From a virus: DNA of 36,469 bases. The position numbers and the translations under genes are program-made. The stretch is from IMG/VR virus record IMGVR_UViG_3300025138_000132, positions 1-36,469 of that record, one strand, 5' to 3'. Within the stretch, counting starts at the first letter, position 1. Each line of letters begins with the position of its first letter. This document shows, in pieces, positions 19,526-27,097 of this stretch. Under the pieces are notes generated by a model, which did no database searches, was not told the DNA's origin, and saw only the letters and a program-made list of their open reading frames with translations.

Positions 19526-19861
19526 ATGAAAGAAAGTTTAAAAGTGTTACAAGAATGTGCAGAAATGCAAACAAAAAAATCTCAAGATTATCAAAGTCAT
19601 GAGTCGACAGTACTTCAAGCGATGCATTATCGCAGAGGTATCGATACAATTCATGATATCTTAATCGGCAAGATGCAGAGAGCGACTTCAATAATTGAAT
19701 CAGGTAACGAACCTAATTATGAATCGCTAGAAGATACCTACAAAGATATGGTTAACTATGCAAGTTTTGCAGTATCATATATTCGTGGTAAAATGGAAGG
19801 ACAAGATCCTGAACGAGACATGTTTAATAAAAGGAAAATTGATGTATCAGAACACGACTAA
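19526..19861 (+). CDS. DUF1599 / nucleotide modification-associated domain 1 protein
   Basis: A 111-residue helical protein. KKSQDYQSHE near the N-terminus, then DILIGKMQRATSIIE and YKDMVNYASFAV fit the DUF1599 pattern (K..DY, K..R, D...Y), a MazG-like helical family named for its association with DNA base-modification gene clusters. A nucleotide-pyrophosphatase-like role is plausible but unproven. The mRNA from P7 should start one base before the ATG. It overlaps the dCMP hydroxymethylase gene by 20 bp. Confidence 0.65.
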   Translation: MKESLKVLQECAEMQTKKSQDYQSHESTVLQAMHYRRGIDTIHDILIGKMQRATSIIESGNEPNYESLEDTYKDMVNYASFAVSYIRGKMEGQDPERDMFNKRKIDVSEHD

Positions 19862-20525
19862 AGATATTGCAGAAATCTTTGTAAATGCTCTTGAAAATAA
19901 AGAGTTTACAATGGATAAAACTGGCTGTAAAACAATTGAAATAATTGGTGCTAATTTTATCGCAGATAAGCCAGCAATATTTGGTAAGCCAAACTATGAA
20001 TATATCGATAAAGAAATCGATTGGTACGAATCTGAATCAACTAATATTAATGATATATATGGTGATGAAAGAGAACCACCTGAAGCATGGAAGTATTCAG
20101 CAGATCCTCATGGAAATATTAATTCTAATTATGGTAAGCTTATATATTCACAACAATATTATAATCAATATGCGTGCGTAGTAGAAGAGTTATGTGATAA
20201 TCCAGATTCCCGTAGAGCATCAATGATATATCAAAGACCAAGTATATGGACTGAATATTATCAAAATGGTAAATCAGATTTTATTTGTACAAATGCAGCA
20301 ACTTATTATATTCGCGACGGCCAAGTACATTCAGTAGTTCAAATGAGATCTAATGATGTAGTATTTGGATATCGTAACGATTATGCTTGGCAAGAATATG
20401 TATTAAAATCTTTAGTTCATGATTTAGAAAAAGAAATGTATTTTGGTAGTCTTGAAGTAGGTAACATCTTCTGGCAAGTACAAAATTTACATGTTTATGA
20501 AAGACATTTTGATTTGGTTAAATAA
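19842..20525 (+). CDS. 42: dCMP hydroxymethylase (gp42 type)
   Basis: From the ATG at 19842 (AAGGA upstream) the protein has 227 residues (T4 gp42: 246). It follows T4 gp42 closely: DKTGCKTIEIIGANF, NPDSRRASMIYQRPS, FICTNAATYYIRDG with catalytic C149 (T4 C148), and MRSNDVVFGYRNDYAWQ with D180 (T4 D179). That Asp replaces the Asn of thymidylate synthases and selects cytosine, so the product should be 5-hydroxymethyl-dCMP made with methylene-tetrahydrofolate. The C-terminus is about 20 residues shorter than in T4. It implies that the phage DNA carries 5-hydroxymethylcytosine or a derivative. Followed immediately by dCMP deaminase. Confidence 0.92.
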   Translation: MYQNTTKDIAEIFVNALENKEFTMDKTGCKTIEIIGANFIADKPAIFGKPNYEYIDKEIDWYESESTNINDIYGDEREPPEAWKYSADPHGNINSNYGKLIYSQQYYNQYACVVEELCDNPDSRRASMIYQRPSIWTEYYQNGKSDFICTNAATYYIRDGQVHSVVQMRSNDVVFGYRNDYAWQEYVLKSLVHDLEKEMYFGSLEVGNIFWQVQNLHVYERHFDLVK

Positions 20526-20972
20526 ATGAACAAATGGGATCAAAGATATTTAGGCTTAGCTAAAGAAATAGCTGGCTGGTCTAAAGATCCAAGTACGCAA
20601 GTTGGCGCGATTGCGGTATCTGATATGGGTGGAGTTATTGCTCAAGGCTATAATGGGTTTCCTCGAGGAATCGAAGATAACGAATATAGACTAGCCGATA
20701 AAGAATCTAAATACAGATATGTAGTGCATGCTGAAATGAATTGTATATATAACGCAGCTTATCAAGGCTCATGTCTTGTAGGCTCAACAATATATGTACA
20801 TGGATTGCCAGTATGTAATGAATGCGCAAAAGGAATAATTCAATCAGGTATAATTAGAGTAGTATCGCCGAAAATAAAAGACGGGACTATTATTCCAATT
20901 AAATGGAAACAATCATTATATACAACGCTTGAATTATTTGAAGAAGTCGGAATCGACTATGATTTCGTCTAG
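20526..20972 (+). CDS. cd: dCMP deaminase
   Basis: A 148-residue zinc deaminase. The HAE zinc/proton-transfer motif is in VVHAEMNCIYNA (near residue 69) and the two zinc cysteines are in LPVCNECAKGII (near 97-100). The N-terminal SKDPSTQVGAI is characteristic. It converts dCMP to dUMP, feeding ThyX (30305) with substrate for dTMP. The start abuts the gene 42 stop. Shorter than T4 Cd (193 aa). Confidence 0.93.
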   Translation: MNKWDQRYLGLAKEIAGWSKDPSTQVGAIAVSDMGGVIAQGYNGFPRGIEDNEYRLADKESKYRYVVHAEMNCIYNAAYQGSCLVGSTIYVHGLPVCNECAKGIIQSGIIRVVSPKIKDGTIIPIKWKQSLYTTLELFEEVGIDYDFV

Positions 20973-21058: not shown

Positions 21059-22339
21059 ATGTCAAAAATAAATATCGCCATCGCAGGCGTAGGCAATTGT
21101 TCATCAGCACTCGTGCAAGGTGTTCAATATTATAAAGAAAACCCAGAAGATACTATTGGTCTAATGTTTCAAGACATTGGTGGTTATTCAGCTTCGAACT
21201 TTAATTTCGTAGTTGGATTTGATGTAGATTCGCGTAAAGTTGGTAAAAGACTAAACACTGCAATCTATGCAAAGCCAAATTGTAATATGGAAGTATATCC
21301 TGAAGGTCATGATATGAGCTGTATTACTAATGAATCAACTGTATATAGATCACCAACACTTGATGGCATTGCGCCACATATGCATGATCTAGACGAAAAC
21401 GTTTCATTCTTAGAAGATACAGAAACTGATGCTATTACAGCAACTCAGTATCGTAAAATTCTTAAAGAAAGTAAAGTTGATGTATTACTCAATTACATGC
21501 CAGTAGGTTCTGAAGAAGCTGCTAGATGGCATATTGAAAATGCTATTCGTGCAGGAATTCATATTGTTAATTGTATGCCAACTTACATCTCAACTAAAGA
21601 TGCTATGGACTTAGAACAACTAGCAATCGATAATGGTGTTACTATTGTTGGTTCAGATATGCGTTCTGATTATGGAGCTTCTCGTTTATCTGAAGTACTA
21701 CAAGGATCTATTATGGATTCTGGTTTATTAGTTACTCAGCACATACAAGAGAATAAAGCGTGTGGAGCGACTCAAGGAGATATGCGTAGAACAGGACGTA
21801 CTGCTAACACAGATTTCTTGAATATGGCTACTAAAGACCGTCTAAAGAATAAGCATATTTCGAAAGAAAATGTACTTAATGGTCAAGCTGTAGTACGTGG
21901 TAAAGATATCGCTGGTCTTACAATGTATGCTGGTCCATCTCTTACTGTTTTTCAGAAACCAGGTGATGAGTATATTGGATCAGATAATAAAATCGCTAAT
22001 ATCGATATGGTATTTTGGGGTTGGGCAGGAGCTCGTTATGAACTAACTGCTCGTCTATCCGTTCAAGATTCTCCAAATAGCGCTGGTATCGTATATGATG
22101 CTATTCGATTTTGTAAGGTTGCTTCTGAAATGGGAATTGTTGGCTACTTACGTGGTCCATCAGCATGGTCACAAAAGACTCCACCAGAACAACTTAAAAC
22201 AGCAGATGCTAAATTTGAATGTGATGCATTAGCTCGTAGAGTTTTAACTGATAAAACAACTCCACAACTTCAACAAAATAAACCAAAGGTAGAAGATCTA
22301 ACTTATACATTCCAATCAGGCGAGAATGACTATGCGTGA
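21059..22339 (+). CDS. Myo-inositol-1-phosphate synthase (MIPS)
   Basis: A 426-residue protein. The N-terminal Rossmann motif INIAIAGVGNCSSALVQG binds NAD. VLLNYMPVGSEEAARWH, then GIHIVNCMPTY, GVTIVGSDMRSDYGASRLSE and later NSAGIVYDAIRFCK are MIPS motifs of the bacterial type. The enzyme isomerises glucose-6-phosphate to inositol-1(3)-phosphate. It is well expressed by design: late promoter L3, a structured leader and AAAGGAGG before the ATG. In context it may supply inositol phosphate or an inositol moiety for DNA modification, but a lipid or osmolyte role is possible. The stop overlaps the HAD gene. Confidence 0.9.
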   Translation: MSKINIAIAGVGNCSSALVQGVQYYKENPEDTIGLMFQDIGGYSASNFNFVVGFDVDSRKVGKRLNTAIYAKPNCNMEVYPEGHDMSCITNESTVYRSPTLDGIAPHMHDLDENVSFLEDTETDAITATQYRKILKESKVDVLLNYMPVGSEEAARWHIENAIRAGIHIVNCMPTYISTKDAMDLEQLAIDNGVTIVGSDMRSDYGASRLSEVLQGSIMDSGLLVTQHIQENKACGATQGDMRRTGRTANTDFLNMATKDRLKNKHISKENVLNGQAVVRGKDIAGLTMYAGPSLTVFQKPGDEYIGSDNKIANIDMVFWGWAGARYELTARLSVQDSPNSAGIVYDAIRFCKVASEMGIVGYLRGPSAWSQKTPPEQLKTADAKFECDALARRVLTDKTTPQLQQNKPKVEDLTYTFQSGENDYA

Positions 22340-22718
22340 TCAAATAAGAATTAATACTTTTGACATTGATGGCGTAATAGATTTTGGTGAAGATTTTACA
22401 GGCGTAAGACCTAGTTATGGTGATATTATCATAACTGGGCGGCCGATCTACGAATTAAAAAAGACTCAAGAGATGCTTATTTCTAGAGGTATAGATAATA
22501 TAGTATATTGTAATCCTCTTTCAAGAGATGACATTAGATACAATAGGAATACCTCAGGTCAATTTAAATCTGGGATAATTACTACATTAAAAAAAATAGG
22601 CTATGACATTGCAATGCATTTTGAGGATGATCCAATTCAGATCAAAGAAATTAGAAAAGATCATCCAGACCTTAATATTATACATTTGAAGCGAGAAGAT
22701 GGGATACTCGAATACTAA
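22326..22718 (+). CDS. HAD-superfamily phosphatase-like protein
   Basis: A 130-residue protein with all HAD motifs: NTFDIDGVIDF (motif I, DxDG), IIITGRP (motif II), a Lys in GQFKSGI (motif III) and HFEDDPIQI (motif IV). It has only a minimal core without a large cap, like small 5'-nucleotidase/phosphatase members. Its start lies in the end of the MIPS gene (14-bp overlap), so it may dephosphorylate inositol phosphate, or a modified nucleotide; substrate is inference. ATG at 22326 precedes another ATG at 22332. Confidence 0.8.
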   Translation: MTMRDQIRINTFDIDGVIDFGEDFTGVRPSYGDIIITGRPIYELKKTQEMLISRGIDNIVYCNPLSRDDIRYNRNTSGQFKSGIITTLKKIGYDIAMHFEDDPIQIKEIRKDHPDLNIIHLKREDGILEY

Positions 22719-23772
22719 ATACTTATACGACTGGAATACATACGATACGGAATTAATGAAGGACTTTAATTGGTTCCTTTATAAAGTTAATCAAAGAGCT
22801 TGCATTCAGCAAGGCTTTATATCTGAAAAATACGAAGCTGTAAATCGGCATGGAGAAACTGACTTTGGCTTAGGCGAAGATGTAGAATATTTCCATCCAA
22901 CAATTACTCTTGATGATCGTATGAGATTCATTGGTACTCAAATTGCTTCTCATCCAATGAGTTTGACTAACATTGTCGGTAATACAATTATATCTCATTT
23001 CTATGGAGCAAGAGGAGTTCATTTTCTAGCTTCAGGTCAAGATGGAGACTTTGTCGACTTTGATAGAATTGCTGATAAAGATAATGATTATAAAGCTTTT
23101 ATTAAAGGTAATTTAGATAAAGCTACAAAAAATAAGCAACCAATATGGGGTACTACAGAATTACATACCTCGATTCAAACGTCAGCAAGAAACTTTTGTC
23201 GGGAATACTATAATCAGCCAGATAGAAAGTTTCATGCATTTGACGTATGTGAATGGGTTGCTTCGTTTAGAGATACAAAGATAATCGAAGGAATGTTAAA
23301 CTGTAATAATATGGAACAAGTGTATACACTTCTCCGTACGTTGCCTGGCATTGGAGAGTATTATGGATTTCATTGCGCAGCTTCTACATCAGTTTTACCT
23401 CAAATGAAATATCACCATGATCAAAGATTTGTATCTCCAGGACCTGGTGCTGTATATACAATAAAATTAATGTGGCCAAATGCTCCAAAGAAAGCGTATG
23501 CTGATTCTATTTATTTTTTAAGAGAAAATTCAGATGAAATTGGACTTACAGCTAATGTTGATTTCGACAGTAATGCATTTAATATCAAACTAAGAGACGG
23601 AAGTTCTTTATTTTCTGAAGAACAAAATACTCTAAAGTACTATGGAACAGAAGTACTTTGTTGTCAGTTTGGTGTATATCTACAAATACGAGATGACGAA
23701 AAAGCATGCGCTCGTAGGCAAGTAGCAAGAGCTAAGACAACAAACACACAATCATTATCGGAGTTTATGTAA
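22699..23772 (+). CDS. aGPT-PPlase / amino-acid:DNA-transferase-like protein
   Basis: A 357-residue protein. A helix-hairpin-helix-like LPGIGEYYGFHCAAST near residues 214-229 is followed by HHDQRFVSPGPGAVYTIK near 241-258. This pairing (hairpin G-x-G, then D..w/f...GPGA) is the pattern I know from alpha-glutamyl/putrescinyl-thymine pyrophosphorylase-like proteins and the helical domain of 5-hmdU DNA kinases, enzymes of phage thymidine hypermodification. No P-loop kinase domain is fused, which fits the transferase-like clades. Here it sits with a cytosine hydroxymethylase, so it may act on modified cytosine. Assignment is by pattern. It overlaps the HAD gene by 20 bp. Confidence 0.6.
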   Translation: MGYSNTKYLYDWNTYDTELMKDFNWFLYKVNQRACIQQGFISEKYEAVNRHGETDFGLGEDVEYFHPTITLDDRMRFIGTQIASHPMSLTNIVGNTIISHFYGARGVHFLASGQDGDFVDFDRIADKDNDYKAFIKGNLDKATKNKQPIWGTTELHTSIQTSARNFCREYYNQPDRKFHAFDVCEWVASFRDTKIIEGMLNCNNMEQVYTLLRTLPGIGEYYGFHCAASTSVLPQMKYHHDQRFVSPGPGAVYTIKLMWPNAPKKAYADSIYFLRENSDEIGLTANVDFDSNAFNIKLRDGSSLFSEEQNTLKYYGTEVLCCQFGVYLQIRDDEKACARRQVARAKTTNTQSLSEFM

Positions 23773-24494
23773 TGGAATTAAGAGAATATAAAGGCGTTCT
23801 TCATCGAAAAGGAAATAGAACAGATAGAAACATGATCAACGATTGTAGAAATAACTACGAAGATTTTAGATTTTTCCCTGGGTCAGTAGTAGTCGATTTC
23901 GGAGCAAACATCGGAGGATTTGCTCATATGTGTAAGAATGGAAACGTAGATGAATATATTGGGTATGAAGCTGATCCAGAAAATTTTGAGATTCTAGCTA
24001 AGAATTTTCCAAGTGAAAAGGGTATTATTCATAGAGCTGCAGTATCTCATTTAGATGATGAGACATTAACATTTTATAGAACTCCTACAGATCAAGGAAC
24101 ATGCTCAGGATCTGTAACTCCTAATTATCGTTCAAAGAAAAGAAGAACATTAAGATATGAAGTAACTAATTATAATATAGATAAAGTACTCGATGAGCAT
24201 AGACCAACGCATTTAAAGATGGATATTGAAGGAACAGAAGCGCATTGGTTAGAACAGAACAATGGTATATTACCGAGATACATAGAAGAATTTGCACTAG
24301 AATTACATAATAAATCAAACGTTTACAAATTCATGGAAATGTGGTATAATAATATAATAAAGGATTTTAAGATAGTAAGAGCACGTGCAGATTATGGATT
24401 TGAAAATGATAACTTCTGGGAATTTCCAGAGCTTGAGATTGCAGGAAGCGGTTCTCTTTTTGGTGTAGATATATTCATGAGAAGAAGAAAATGA
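23772..24494 (+). CDS. FkbM-family SAM-dependent methyltransferase
   Basis: A 240-residue Class I methyltransferase of the FkbM type: SVVVDFGANIGGFA (SAM-binding motif I), YIGYEADPENFEIL (acidic residue of motif II), then THLKMDIEGTEAHWL and a C-terminal strand pair ending GVDIFMRRRK. FkbM enzymes usually O-methylate sugars or similar hydroxyl groups. In this cluster it may decorate a sugar or inositol attached to DNA; that is inference. The stop of the previous gene overlaps its ATG by one base. A sigma70-type promoter lies inside it at 24322-24350. Confidence 0.85.
   Translation: MELREYKGVLHRKGNRTDRNMINDCRNNYEDFRFFPGSVVVDFGANIGGFAHMCKNGNVDEYIGYEADPENFEILAKNFPSEKGIIHRAAVSHLDDETLTFYRTPTDQGTCSGSVTPNYRSKKRRTLRYEVTNYNIDKVLDEHRPTHLKMDIEGTEAHWLEQNNGILPRYIEEFALELHNKSNVYKFMEMWYNNIIKDFKIVRARADYGFENDNFWEFPELEIAGSGSLFGVDIFMRRRK
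24322..24350 (+). promoter_or_regulatory. Sigma70-type promoter P8, inside the FkbM gene
   Basis: TTTACA at 24322-24327, 17-bp spacer, TATAAT at 24345-24350 with GTGG before. It matches the intergenic copies although it must also encode protein. It would express the following genes up to the C5-methyltransferase early. Confidence 0.75.
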
Positions 24495-24754: not shown

Positions 24755-24909
24755 GATACTATTGGAAATTATGGGCTAAGTCCCTAGGAGAAAAAGCATC
24801 AGATGATCCAAAAGAAGCTGATATAGTTGCTCTTATGAGAACAGTTATTGTAATAGTAAATTTTGGAACTTGCTTTTTTATTATATCAGGTATACTGAGG
24901 CATTGGTAA
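24748..24909 (+). CDS. Small single-pass membrane protein (53 aa)
   Basis: A short gene starting MVRYYWKLWAKSLGEK, with a hydrophobic stretch VIVIVNFGTCFFIISGIL near residues 32-49. Likely membrane-inserted; function unknown. It overlaps the previous stop by 7 bp, and its TAA overlaps the next ATG (TAATG). Confidence 0.55.
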   Translation: MVRYYWKLWAKSLGEKASDDPKEADIVALMRTVIVIVNFGTCFFIISGILRHW

Positions 24910-25913
24910 TGAAGAATATTATTAATTGTCCTTTCATACCAATTGCAAAAAGAGCAGCATCCCATAGAGGAGCACAAGGAGTAATATATGGCGATCAAAT
25001 ACAACAAAAATACGGACACTGCGATGTCAATTATGGCGGAACAATTAGCGACCACAATGACTATGATAGTCTTTGGGTTTATCATGGCAGTGACTGGAGC
25101 GGTGGTCTCAATATGTTTGGTGGTGTCTATGGTTTTCCATATGTTCAAAACACTGTTAACTTTTCTAGATTTACCGGAAAGGTTTATTCAATTGGAATCG
25201 ATTTTCCACCGTACCATGAAATGGTTCAAGGAAAACTTGACTCCGCTAAGAAAGAAGTTCAGCCGGAATGGTTGGAAGTAGACATTGAAAATTTAAAAAG
25301 GATGTATGATACTGCAGAAACAGTTATATTTCCAAACTTAACTAAAAAATTAATCGTAGGAGATTCACATTCAATCTGTATGTATAGACCAGGTTGGACT
25401 GTAAATAGTGTTCCGTTTAAGACATTGAATGGAGCATTAAACGATGGATTAGAATCATATATCAACGTAGAGACTGAAGGTTCAGTAGAATTCTATTTTG
25501 GTAATATAGATATAAGACATCATGTATGTAGACTGGAAGGCGGTTGGGAGAAGAACGTAAAAGATCTAGCTGAACGATATGTAACGGAGGTGAAGAACTT
25601 ATCTGTTCCAGGTCGTATTTACGAACTTCTACCCATCGAGAACGAATCAAGAAAGCTTCCTCAGTCAGGATACTATAAAGGACAACCATTTTATGGAAGT
25701 TGGGATGAAAGAAACAGAGCAAGAAAACTCTTTAATGAGATTATTCATGACTCTGGATTAGGAATCGAATGGACTAAATATTTATTAAACAAAGACGGAG
25801 AACTAGATTTTGCTTATATGGAAAAGCCTAAATCAATTCATTTGTCAAGAGAATTCTATCCATATTGGAACGGTATAGAAAACAACAATAGCTTGGAGGA
25901 GTTTTTCGGATGA
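24909..25913 (+). CDS. SGNH/GDSL-like protein of the modification cluster
   Basis: From the ATG at 24909 the protein has 334 residues. The central KKLIVGDSHSICMYRPGW (GDSHS at 151-155) and YFGNIDIRHHVCR (near 196-208) resemble the nucleophile block and the fG-ID-R-H block of SGNH hydrolases. The N-terminal 90 residues are Gly/Asp/Tyr-rich and read like a separate domain (YGFPYVQN). SGNH enzymes are esterases or acyltransferases; an acyl or sugar-linked substrate is only a guess. AGGAG motifs near the 3' end serve the next gene, which overlaps by 4 bp. Confidence 0.5.
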   Translation: MKNIINCPFIPIAKRAASHRGAQGVIYGDQIQQKYGHCDVNYGGTISDHNDYDSLWVYHGSDWSGGLNMFGGVYGFPYVQNTVNFSRFTGKVYSIGIDFPPYHEMVQGKLDSAKKEVQPEWLEVDIENLKRMYDTAETVIFPNLTKKLIVGDSHSICMYRPGWTVNSVPFKTLNGALNDGLESYINVETEGSVEFYFGNIDIRHHVCRLEGGWEKNVKDLAERYVTEVKNLSVPGRIYELLPIENESRKLPQSGYYKGQPFYGSWDERNRARKLFNEIIHDSGLGIEWTKYLLNKDGELDFAYMEKPKSIHLSREFYPYWNGIENNNSLEEFFG

Positions 25914-27097
25914 AATATGCGAGTATAATACCACTTATAGGTGGAGAAACAATAGCAATGGAGAATGTTTTTGGTAAAAGACCAGAATATATTCTCACTT
26001 TTGAGGGATTTCAGGCTAATGAAGAACACCTTTTACACCGTTATAACAATGAGGTCCCATATTTGAACCTCTCAGAGGGCCACAGTTACACAGAAAAAGT
26101 TGATGTGATTAATACTGTATGCCCATGTGCAGGGCTAAGCTCACTTAGTCCATCAGCAGCAAGTAATAATCCTATGAATGATTGGATGTATAAAGCTGCA
26201 GAATATGTACTTGGTGAAGTAAAGCCAAAGGTATTCTGGGGAGAAAACGCTCCTAGATTAGCATCTAAAATGGGAGAACCTGTAGTTAAAAGACTAAGAA
26301 AGATTGGCGAAGAGAATGGTTATTCATTTTCTATATTTAAAACTAAATCCATACTTCATGGATTAAGCCAAGTAAGAGATAGAACATTCTATTTCTTTTG
26401 GGAAGGAGATCACGTTCCTTTATTTGATTATATATTAGAAAGACCAGGTAATATTGCTGATGACATACGTAATGTAGAACGTAGAAAAGACGATCCAATG
26501 AGCCAGATACTATGTAATGAAGCAAAGCCTTCAGATAATCCTTACTATCGATATGTATTAGAAGTATTAGAAGGTGGTATAACACATGAAGAGTTTGCAG
26601 CTAAAATAGAAAAAACAACTAATCCAATGGATTATATAGAAGAAAGAACTAATTATAAGAAAGTAGCTGAATGGATGAGAGAAAATGGATACGATAACGT
26701 AGCTAAAAAATGTGATAGACAATATCATAAGCTTAAAGCTGGCGGTAATATAATGCGTAAAACTACAGAAATACCTAAAGACAAGATAGGCGCTTTTGTA
26801 GGACACATGCCTACATGTTTAACTCATCCTGATGAAGATAGATACCTTACTGTACGTGAAGCTTTATCATTAATGAAACTACCAGATGATTTTATCTTAC
26901 TAAATCCTAAACGTTCTTTAAATCATATCTGCCAAAACGTACCAGTTACTACAGCTGAGCATCCTGCTCGTATGATAAAGAAATACTTTGATAATCAATT
27001 AGATATGATTGAGACTAAATTCTTAGTACAAGATAACAAAAAAAGATCCTATAAAAGTGAAAATAATCCTTTACAATTGGACCAATTTATGGTATAA
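25910..27097 (+). CDS. C5-cytosine methyltransferase homologue
   Basis: A 395-residue protein. The C5-MTase motifs are in order: motif I-like PLIGGETIAMENV, motif IV TVCPCAGLSS with the catalytic Cys at 73, motif VI GENAP (E111), motif VIII LSQVRDRTF, and near the C-terminus motif IX YLTVREALSLMKLPDDF and motif X-like NHICQNVPVTTAEHPA. The target-recognition region is long and charged. It should act on cytosine C5 or be a repurposed relative. With a hydroxymethylase making hmC upstream, its real reaction is unclear. The stop lies inside the -10 box of promoter P9. Confidence 0.82.
   Translation: MKYASIIPLIGGETIAMENVFGKRPEYILTFEGFQANEEHLLHRYNNEVPYLNLSEGHSYTEKVDVINTVCPCAGLSSLSPSAASNNPMNDWMYKAAEYVLGEVKPKVFWGENAPRLASKMGEPVVKRLRKIGEENGYSFSIFKTKSILHGLSQVRDRTFYFFWEGDHVPLFDYILERPGNIADDIRNVERRKDDPMSQILCNEAKPSDNPYYRYVLEVLEGGITHEEFAAKIEKTTNPMDYIEERTNYKKVAEWMRENGYDNVAKKCDRQYHKLKAGGNIMRKTTEIPKDKIGAFVGHMPTCLTHPDEDRYLTVREALSLMKLPDDFILLNPKRSLNHICQNVPVTTAEHPARMIKKYFDNQLDMIETKFLVQDNKKRSYKSENNPLQLDQFMV

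Follow-up and report, generated by a model that had tools for sequence, protein, structure and literature searches.

What does a protein with the helical fold of 5-hydroxymethyldeoxyuridine (5-hmdU) DNA kinases do in a phage of the hydroxymethylcytosine (hmC) type, next to genes for an inositol phosphate synthase and a phosphatase? The question is raised by a locus in viral DNA of 36,469 nucleotides (IMG/VR record IMGVR_UViG_3300025138_000132), the whole of which is called the window here. The window is taken to be part of the genome of a T4-like phage, probably a marine one, because its DNA polymerase is closest to that of Phage C48C1 (51.8% identity), followed by those of cyanophages. That phage DNA can be hypermodified is already known, as is the superfamily of the protein, hereafter HEL. 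The reading put forward below, with a probability of roughly 0.58, is that HEL is a DNA-base transferase of the HMUDK_hel/ADDT (amino acid:DNA transferase) superfamily, built on a fold like that of helix-hairpin-helix (HhH) glycosylases, which would join a cyclitol made by the neighboring IPS and HAD enzymes to hmC without a companion DNA kinase. The features of the locus are the following.

19842–20525, plus strand: dCMP hydroxymethylase of the T4 gp42 type, with Asp (PDB 1b49, E 1.8e-70; motif RSNDVVFGYRND)
20526–20972, plus strand: dCMP deaminase (PF00383, E 8.8e-19)
21059–22339, plus strand: IPS, myo-inositol-1-phosphate synthase homologue (PF01658, 30.9 bits against a cut-off of 27; PDB 1gr0, E 1.7e-50)
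22326–22718, plus strand: HAD, small phosphatase with DxDG, TGR, K, and DD motifs, overlapping IPS and HEL (phrog_415, E 1e-6)
22699–23772, plus strand: HEL, kinase-less HMUDK_hel-type protein, proposed transferase on hmC in DNA (PF18723, AF2 model, fold matches, 36 invariant columns)
23341–23373, plus strand: LPGIGEYYGFH, HhH-like motif, HEL residues 215–225 (G217, G219, Y221, Y222, and H225 invariant)
23419–23451, plus strand: DQRFVSPGPGA, HEL residues 241–251 (G248, G250, and A251 invariant, D241 not)
23772–24494, plus strand: FkbM-type methyltransferase, optional member (PF05050, E 6.4e-11; its cluster is found in 53 loci)
24909–25913, plus strand: SGNH-like protein, a label taken from the motifs GDSH, GNID, and SIHLS only (phrog_17781, E 5.2e-45; phrog_13881, E 4e-43)
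25910–27097, plus strand: C5-cytosine methyltransferase-like protein, optional member, catalytic Cys kept, SAM motif I atypical (PF00145, E 1.1e-15; alignment)

Family and Motifs of HEL

The open frame of HEL encodes 357 amino acids and overlaps the preceding gene by 20 bases and the following gene by one. A sequence-only reading of the window had pointed to the two motifs listed above, both of which are present in this order, and had placed the protein in the superfamily of HMUDK_hel, aGPT-PPlase, and amino acid:DNA transferases. Profile and fold comparisons bear out this membership, and neither puts HEL outside the superfamily. In the Pfam search, the helical domain of 5-hmdU DNA kinases (HMUDK_hel, PF18723) is the sole family (E 5.5e-12, 46.1 bits against a cut-off of 25), with a match that covers only residues 184–292, i.e., 109 of the 357. 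The same family is matched by all 35 diverse aligned relatives at E ≤ 0.001, and one such protein per record was found in all 18 virus records searched; the HEL protein of Aeromonas phage 44RR2.8t reaches only 16.3 to 17.2 bits against the cut-off of 25. The alignment of the 35 sequences holds 36 invariant columns, among them D182, W186, the five listed residues of the HhH-like motif, the three listed residues of the second motif, and E318, C322, and Q323.

Other sequence comparisons were less productive. PF18724, the amino acid:DNA transferase family, gave no match to HEL, PF18723 alone being reported at E ≤ 1, and a search of NCBIfam returned nothing. The PDB sequence search yielded a single weak and unusable match (E 0.34) with HEL itself and no usable match with the alignment profile (A5). 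With hhalign, HEL and the ADDT of Caulobacter phage Cr30 could not be aligned (probability 0.1), and the alignment with the HMUDK_hel protein of contig L250 spans only 64 columns (74.7).

Predicted Fold

The AlphaFold (AF2) model built from the diverse alignment is nearly all-helical (pLDDT 86, pTM 0.84); a single-sequence model (pLDDT 31.5) was discarded. Among the viral models of BFVD, it matches the 5-hmdU DNA kinase of SP10 (F8WQ30, E 2.7e-7), an aGPT-PPlase of clade 1 (A0A8S5QVR0, E 1e-3), the helical protein of phiW-14 (C9DG43, E 1.9e-3), and ORF233c of Aeromonas phage 31, and the same fold is seen in the model from phiRSL1. A Foldseek search against the PDB returned no match at E 0.001 or better. 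With VIA-align, the best solved match in the PDB is PUGT, the 5-phosphomethyl-dU (5-PmdU) glycinyltransferase (8z2n_B), with Z 10.8, an rmsd of 3.9, and 219 of 288 residues aligned, a score to be read with the caution that helical folds can reach Z ~10 by chance. The second match is a queuine-salvage enzyme of the DUF2419 type, a nucleosidase (Z 9.3), and DNA glycosylases of the OGG/AGOG/Mag type score between 5.6 and 8.9, the 8-oxoguanine glycosylases at 8.9 and below. The resemblance to HhH glycosylases noted from the sequence is thereby supported by the model, albeit more weakly than that to PUGT, and the two comparisons suggested at that stage agree in direction, subject to the same caution on chance helical scores.

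These scores also bear on the idea that HEL is a DNA glycosylase-like enzyme, excising or exchanging a base. HEL shares its helical fold with OGG1, AGOG, MagIII, and DUF2419 (Z ~6 to 9), as well as an HhH-like motif, and a nucleosidase ranks second among the solved structures. However, D241, the residue nearest in position to the catalytic Asp of the glycosylases, is kept in the close group but is not invariant, and Asp residues of the 44RR group lie two places off. The tested members of the HMUDK_hel/ADDT superfamily are kinases and transferases, the genomic context of HEL is one of DNA hypermodification, and base excision would leave IPS and HAD unaccounted for. A glycosylase activity is considered very improbable, and HEL is treated as a putative transferase in what follows.

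Base Type and the Absent Kinase

The hydroxymethylase of the window had been read as carrying the cytosine-specifying Asp, and the comparison with the T4 dCMP hydroxymethylase agrees. In the alignment, it has Asp (RNDYAW), which we take to be the specificity residue, as opposed to the Asn (RNNYAW) of two further PDB sequences of the enzyme. Where a thymidylate synthase (TS)-like gene is present in the locus, an Asp copy accompanies 89 of the 92 distinct HEL sequences (87 with Asp only, two with Asp and an Asn or unreadable copy); two of the remaining three have no readable motif and one has Asn only. The Asn-type hydroxymethylase of an hmU context is accordingly not the usual companion of HEL. 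The four distinct ADDT loci with a TS-like gene have Asn in three cases, an unreadable motif in one, and Asp in none.

The absence of a P-loop from HEL and of a recognized DNA kinase from the window, both asserted in the sequence-only reading, also held. A motif scan of HEL detected no Walker A motif, and the P-loop strings of the window are confined to ORFs that were read from their sequences as gp46-like, MoxR-like, gp44-like, and gp41-like; one more, in the sliding clamp, is a chance match. Across the loci, no conserved P-loop protein or kinase was found within 6 kb of HEL. It follows that HEL would either need no activating kinase of the classic type or rely on an unrelated kinase encoded elsewhere. 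If the kinase is indeed absent, the activation step is unexplained, and this counts against the transfer of a cyclitol by HEL.

Two side observations concern kinases. A Walker-A-like string occurs in eight HEL relatives (L117, L120, L124–L126, L130, L133, and L135), in the variable N-terminal region where it is not conserved, and is probably due to chance. The single contig L250 (L250:1468–9676) contains a whole hmU-type set composed of a P-loop kinase, an Asn-type TS homologue, ADDT, HMUDK_hel, IPS, and HAD; its split hmU-type kinase went unmatched in the remaining 15 of 16 records, among them the complete 44RR2.8t.

Partner Genes and Cassette Conservation

K265, K269, K311, and K373 of IPS, which we take to be the catalytic lysines, are kept in at least 97% of 137 sequences, and the DxD, T, K, and DD motifs of HAD in at least 97% of 136. 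On this conservation, both proteins look like working enzymes. IPS falls below the cut-off of the mycothiol INO1 equivalog TIGR03450 in NCBIfam (200.5 against 638 bits) and, in the PDB sequence comparison, also resembles a five-membered cyclitol synthase, while the same search with HAD gave no usable match.

In the close relatives of HEL (60–95% identical), IPS and HAD are both found in 71 of 71 loci with room upstream, the SGNH-like gene follows HEL in 67 of 68 loci with room, and the C5-methyltransferase-like gene is present in 49 of 53. In a second set of 60 loci, whose HEL is only ~27% identical and whose gene orders differ, IPS is present in 59, the exception being 44RR2.8t. When identical sequences are counted once and L100–L105 are set aside, 153 distinct HEL sequences are obtained, with IPS in the locus of 148, HAD in 145, and the SGNH-like gene in 139. 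Five loci lack IPS: L001 and L002, both Aeromonas sequences, and L006, L039, and L096, each of which lies where a contig or stored sequence ends. The IPS–HAD–HEL cassette is thus met in more than one gene order. Given these near-constant partners, a cyclitol is likelier than an amino acid as the transferred group, and no genes for amino acid transfer were found in the cassette. The earlier suggestion of a transferase on modified cytosine therefore stands as regards superfamily and hmC context, but an amino acid as its cargo finds no support.

The cultured phages with HEL are 19 Aeromonas records, which count as one case since the phages are closely related; none of the 19 belongs to the 18 phage records in which IPS was matched, which counts against the reading. 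All 19 encode an SSF symporter instead. A link of this symporter to inositol is a guess, in which polyol import could replace synthesis in 44RR-type phages.

Viral and Bacterial Loci of the Inositol Synthase

A role of the inositol synthase in DNA modification predicts that its viral genes adjoin DNA-modification genes even in loci without HEL. Profile scans that each retained the 80 best of the 493 to 517 viral relatives covered 147 new loci of ~500; partner classes were called within flanks of up to 8 kb, with ADDT and QueC profiles built from two sequences each. Among 70 new viral loci from the best 80 relatives, HEL is the partner in 56, ADDT in eight, and QueC in one, and five end within 480 bases of IPS. 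The 77 more divergent loci, likewise drawn from the best 80, divide into 32 with ADDT, 23 with HEL, 15 with the 7-deazaguanine genes QueC or DpdA, and seven with none; each of these seven is cut off close to IPS, either on the usual side of the partner or within its usual distance. None of the 77 contains two partner classes. As a control, 80 IPS loci in bacterial genomes were inspected: 77 have no HEL, HAD, SGNH-like, or C5-methyltransferase-like gene and three have all four, and HAD is found in none of the 76 distinct remaining loci. The three (L410, L413, and L414) carry the HEL cassette on contigs measuring 71 kb, 9.6 kb, and 10 kb, two of them from metagenome-assembled genomes (MAGs), and probably represent phage DNA placed among bacterial genomes.

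An IPS tree was computed from 354 loci reduced to 57 rows, excluding loci assigned to zero or several classes, IPS pieces below 340 amino acids, near copies at 80% identity, one of the 13 bacterial representatives, and L100–L105. The HEL label must change 15 times to fit the tree of these 57 sequences, and well-supported branches force 13 of the changes; among the phage rows, the partner switched at least 12 times. As expected, the labels cluster more than shuffled ones. The repeated re-pairing of IPS with only three types of partner argues for a common use of its product on DNA.

These distributions weigh on two alternatives. The inositol could be used elsewhere (lipid, osmolyte, or virion), its genes lying nearby only as modification islands gather accessory genes. 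The islands are indeed gene-dense and bacterial homologues occur outside phage cassettes. Such a use is nevertheless judged quite improbable, considering that 70 of the 77 divergent loci, among the best 80 of 493 to 517 relatives, have exactly one of the three DNA-modification partners, that the other seven end close to IPS, and that the tree requires no fewer than 12 partner switches. Alternatively, the group that HEL moves to hmC could be an amino acid or another amine, with IPS and HAD serving a separate step or pathway. The superfamily offers precedent, ADDT and PUGT transferring an amino acid or amine onto phosphorylated hmU, and the fold of HEL matches PUGT and ADDT-type proteins. However, PF18724 does not match HEL, no kinase is conserved nearby, and IPS and HAD, near-constant beside HEL, are met again in ADDT and 7-deazaguanine loci, so that this alternative appears unlikely compared with a cyclitol as the transferred group.

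The three partner classes raise the broader prospect of a portable cyclitol module, IPS plus HAD, that might serve three hypermodification chemistries: hmC with a kinase-less HEL, hmU with a kinase and ADDT, and 7-deazaguanine. This generalization is tentative, with chances slightly short of even. If it were true, cyclitol-bearing DNA would be a widespread and unrecognized form of modified genetic material.

Several loci are worth recording individually. Caulobacter phage Cr30 (L050:6732–11257) groups ADDT (PF18724, E 1.3e-52), a TAGT-like glycosyltransferase below the cut-off, IPS, and HAD, and the DNA of this cultured phage may thus have a thymine-type base decorated with a cyclitol; a PDB sequence search with its ADDT gave no usable match. 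IPS and HAD adjoin QueC or DpdA-type 7-deazaguanine genes in L051:9001–12693, in L234:4389–6896, and in 15 loci of L263–L339, Stenotrophomonas menderaviruses included, and the likeness of IPS to a five-membered cyclitol synthase recalls the cyclopentenediol of queuosine. Phage and bacterial IPS sequences interleave on the tree (L417, L346, L345, L415, L418, and L419), which suggests exchange with hosts. The IPS of the window groups with those of Sediminibacterium and an Acidobacteria MAG, and in a larger set that of the menderaviruses stands beside Saccharibacteria.

Proposed Mechanism and the SGNH-like Protein

In the proposed pathway, the gp42-type enzyme would supply hmC for incorporation into DNA, IPS would convert glucose-6-phosphate to inositol phosphate, and HAD would strip or remodel the phosphate to leave a free cyclitol. 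HEL could then bind flipped-out hmC and join a cyclitol oxygen to the hydroxymethyl carbon, assisted by the SGNH-like protein, and the FkbM-type enzyme may methylate the added ring. A comparable bond is made in phage ViI, where ADDT joins the serine oxygen to phosphorylated hmU. Sequence and model show the superfamily, the fold, the missing P-loop, the hmC-type hydroxymethylase, the intact motifs of IPS and HAD, and the conservation of the cassette; we infer that the cyclitol would be myo-inositol or a relative, that it would end on DNA, and that HEL would form the bond.

The SGNH-like protein follows HEL rather than IPS. Among distinct loci, it is found in 139 of 153 with HEL, in none of 30 with ADDT, and in none of 16 with 7-deazaguanine genes; in the divergent viral IPS loci, it occurs in 20 of 23 with HEL and four of the seven partnerless ones, never with ADDT or QueC. 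In 44RR2.8t, the two proteins are fused into one, and in PHROG 17781 (795 positions) the first half matches the SGNH-like product of the window and the second half HEL. A PDB search with the SGNH-like alignment gave no usable match. As a guess, this protein is the best candidate for the missing activation step.

A stronger version holds that HEL merely recognizes and flips hmC while the SGNH-like protein catalyzes the reaction, standing in for the missing kinase. The distribution and fusion just described fit this idea, as do the conserved Ser and His motifs. On the other hand, no SGNH-like gene was detected in L040 despite the presence of IPS, HAD, and HEL; Aeromonas phage 25 (L052:4764–8047) has such a gene where no PF18723 match was found; and 36 invariant HEL residues, including E318 and C322, exceed the apparent need of base flipping. 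The idea has an outside chance, and catalysis by HEL itself is preferred. In phage 25, the two genes before the SGNH-like gene were read by eye as a UDP-galactopyranose mutase and a glycosyltransferase, and the SGNH-like protein may be tied to hmC decoration in general.

Relation to Known Systems

The closest relatives of HEL differ from it in chemistry. Unlike 5-hmdU DNA kinases, with which it shares its only Pfam family, HEL has no kinase domain, was not found with an hmU-type kinase as companion, and accompanies a dCMP hydroxymethylase and IPS. ADDT likewise pairs with IPS and HAD, in Cr30 and L250, but HEL has only ~10% identity to PUGT and ADDT and stands in an hmC rather than an hmU context. 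If the reading is correct, a helical transferase known from thymidine chemistry works on cytosine without a DNA kinase.

Among hmC phages, the sections available of a study on RB69 describe an arabinosyl-hmC locus with a putative arabinosyltransferase and UDP-arabinose genes (PMC8056088). The likeness extends to modification genes between polymerase and uvsX and to a polynucleotide-kinase-like phosphatase domain, as far as those sections go (PMC8056088), whereas the window has IPS and HEL in place of the arabinosyltransferase and UDP-arabinose genes, and no glycosyltransferase was recognized in it. No paper describing a cyclitol on DNA, or inositol in phage DNA modification, was found in the open-licence literature; in the part of PMC9025141 at hand, the Ps15 synthase is mentioned only as a bacteria-like protein.

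Cyclitol DNA could have escaped notice partly because inositol-hmC and glucosyl-hmC are identical in elemental formula and in mass, so that mass spectrometry alone could confuse them. The formula calculated for an inositol ether of hmdC, C16H25N3O10 ([M+H]+ ~420.16), is also that of glucosyl-hmdC. Were a cyclitol base to be measured, DNA decoration would gain a new class, with inositol or another cyclitol joining sugars, amines, and amino acids. Cultured phages open to direct test are Caulobacter phage Cr30 and the Stenotrophomonas menderaviruses, with IPS and HAD, and the Aeromonas biquartaviruses, with HEL fused to the SGNH-like protein.

The C5-Methyltransferase-like Family

The C5-methyltransferase-like family (window 25910–27097; L054:6986–8203; L055:5363–6580) keeps what we take to be the catalytic Cys, ENA, QxRxR, and QNV motifs, with PLxGG replacing the usual SAM motif I. 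It is found in hmC-type phages, where C5 is already occupied, and the protein may use hmC instead of making 5mC. The CmoA/CmoX/CmoY carboxymethylcytosine system is similar in that phage cytosine is hypermodified with a C5-methyltransferase homologue (PMC12783734, from the portion available), but no CmoA or CmoY was recognized on reading the ORFs of the window. By our reading of the alignment, the window protein retains QNV where CmoX has Arg (same portion of PMC12783734); a role as a CmoX carboxymethyltransferase was dropped because this motif retains its Asn.

Two further phages with this family deserve mention. In the unannotated Pseudoalteromonas phage XG4 (L055:1329–5344), a nucleotidyltransferase–phosphotransferase fusion and two glycosyltransferase-like genes are flanked by an Asp-type dCMP hydroxymethylase and the C5-methyltransferase-like gene. 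In cyanophage S-TIM5, an annotated thymidylate synthase (L054:3766–4602) near such a gene has Asp at the specificity position (RSNDMATGVPLD) and may therefore be a dCMP enzyme.
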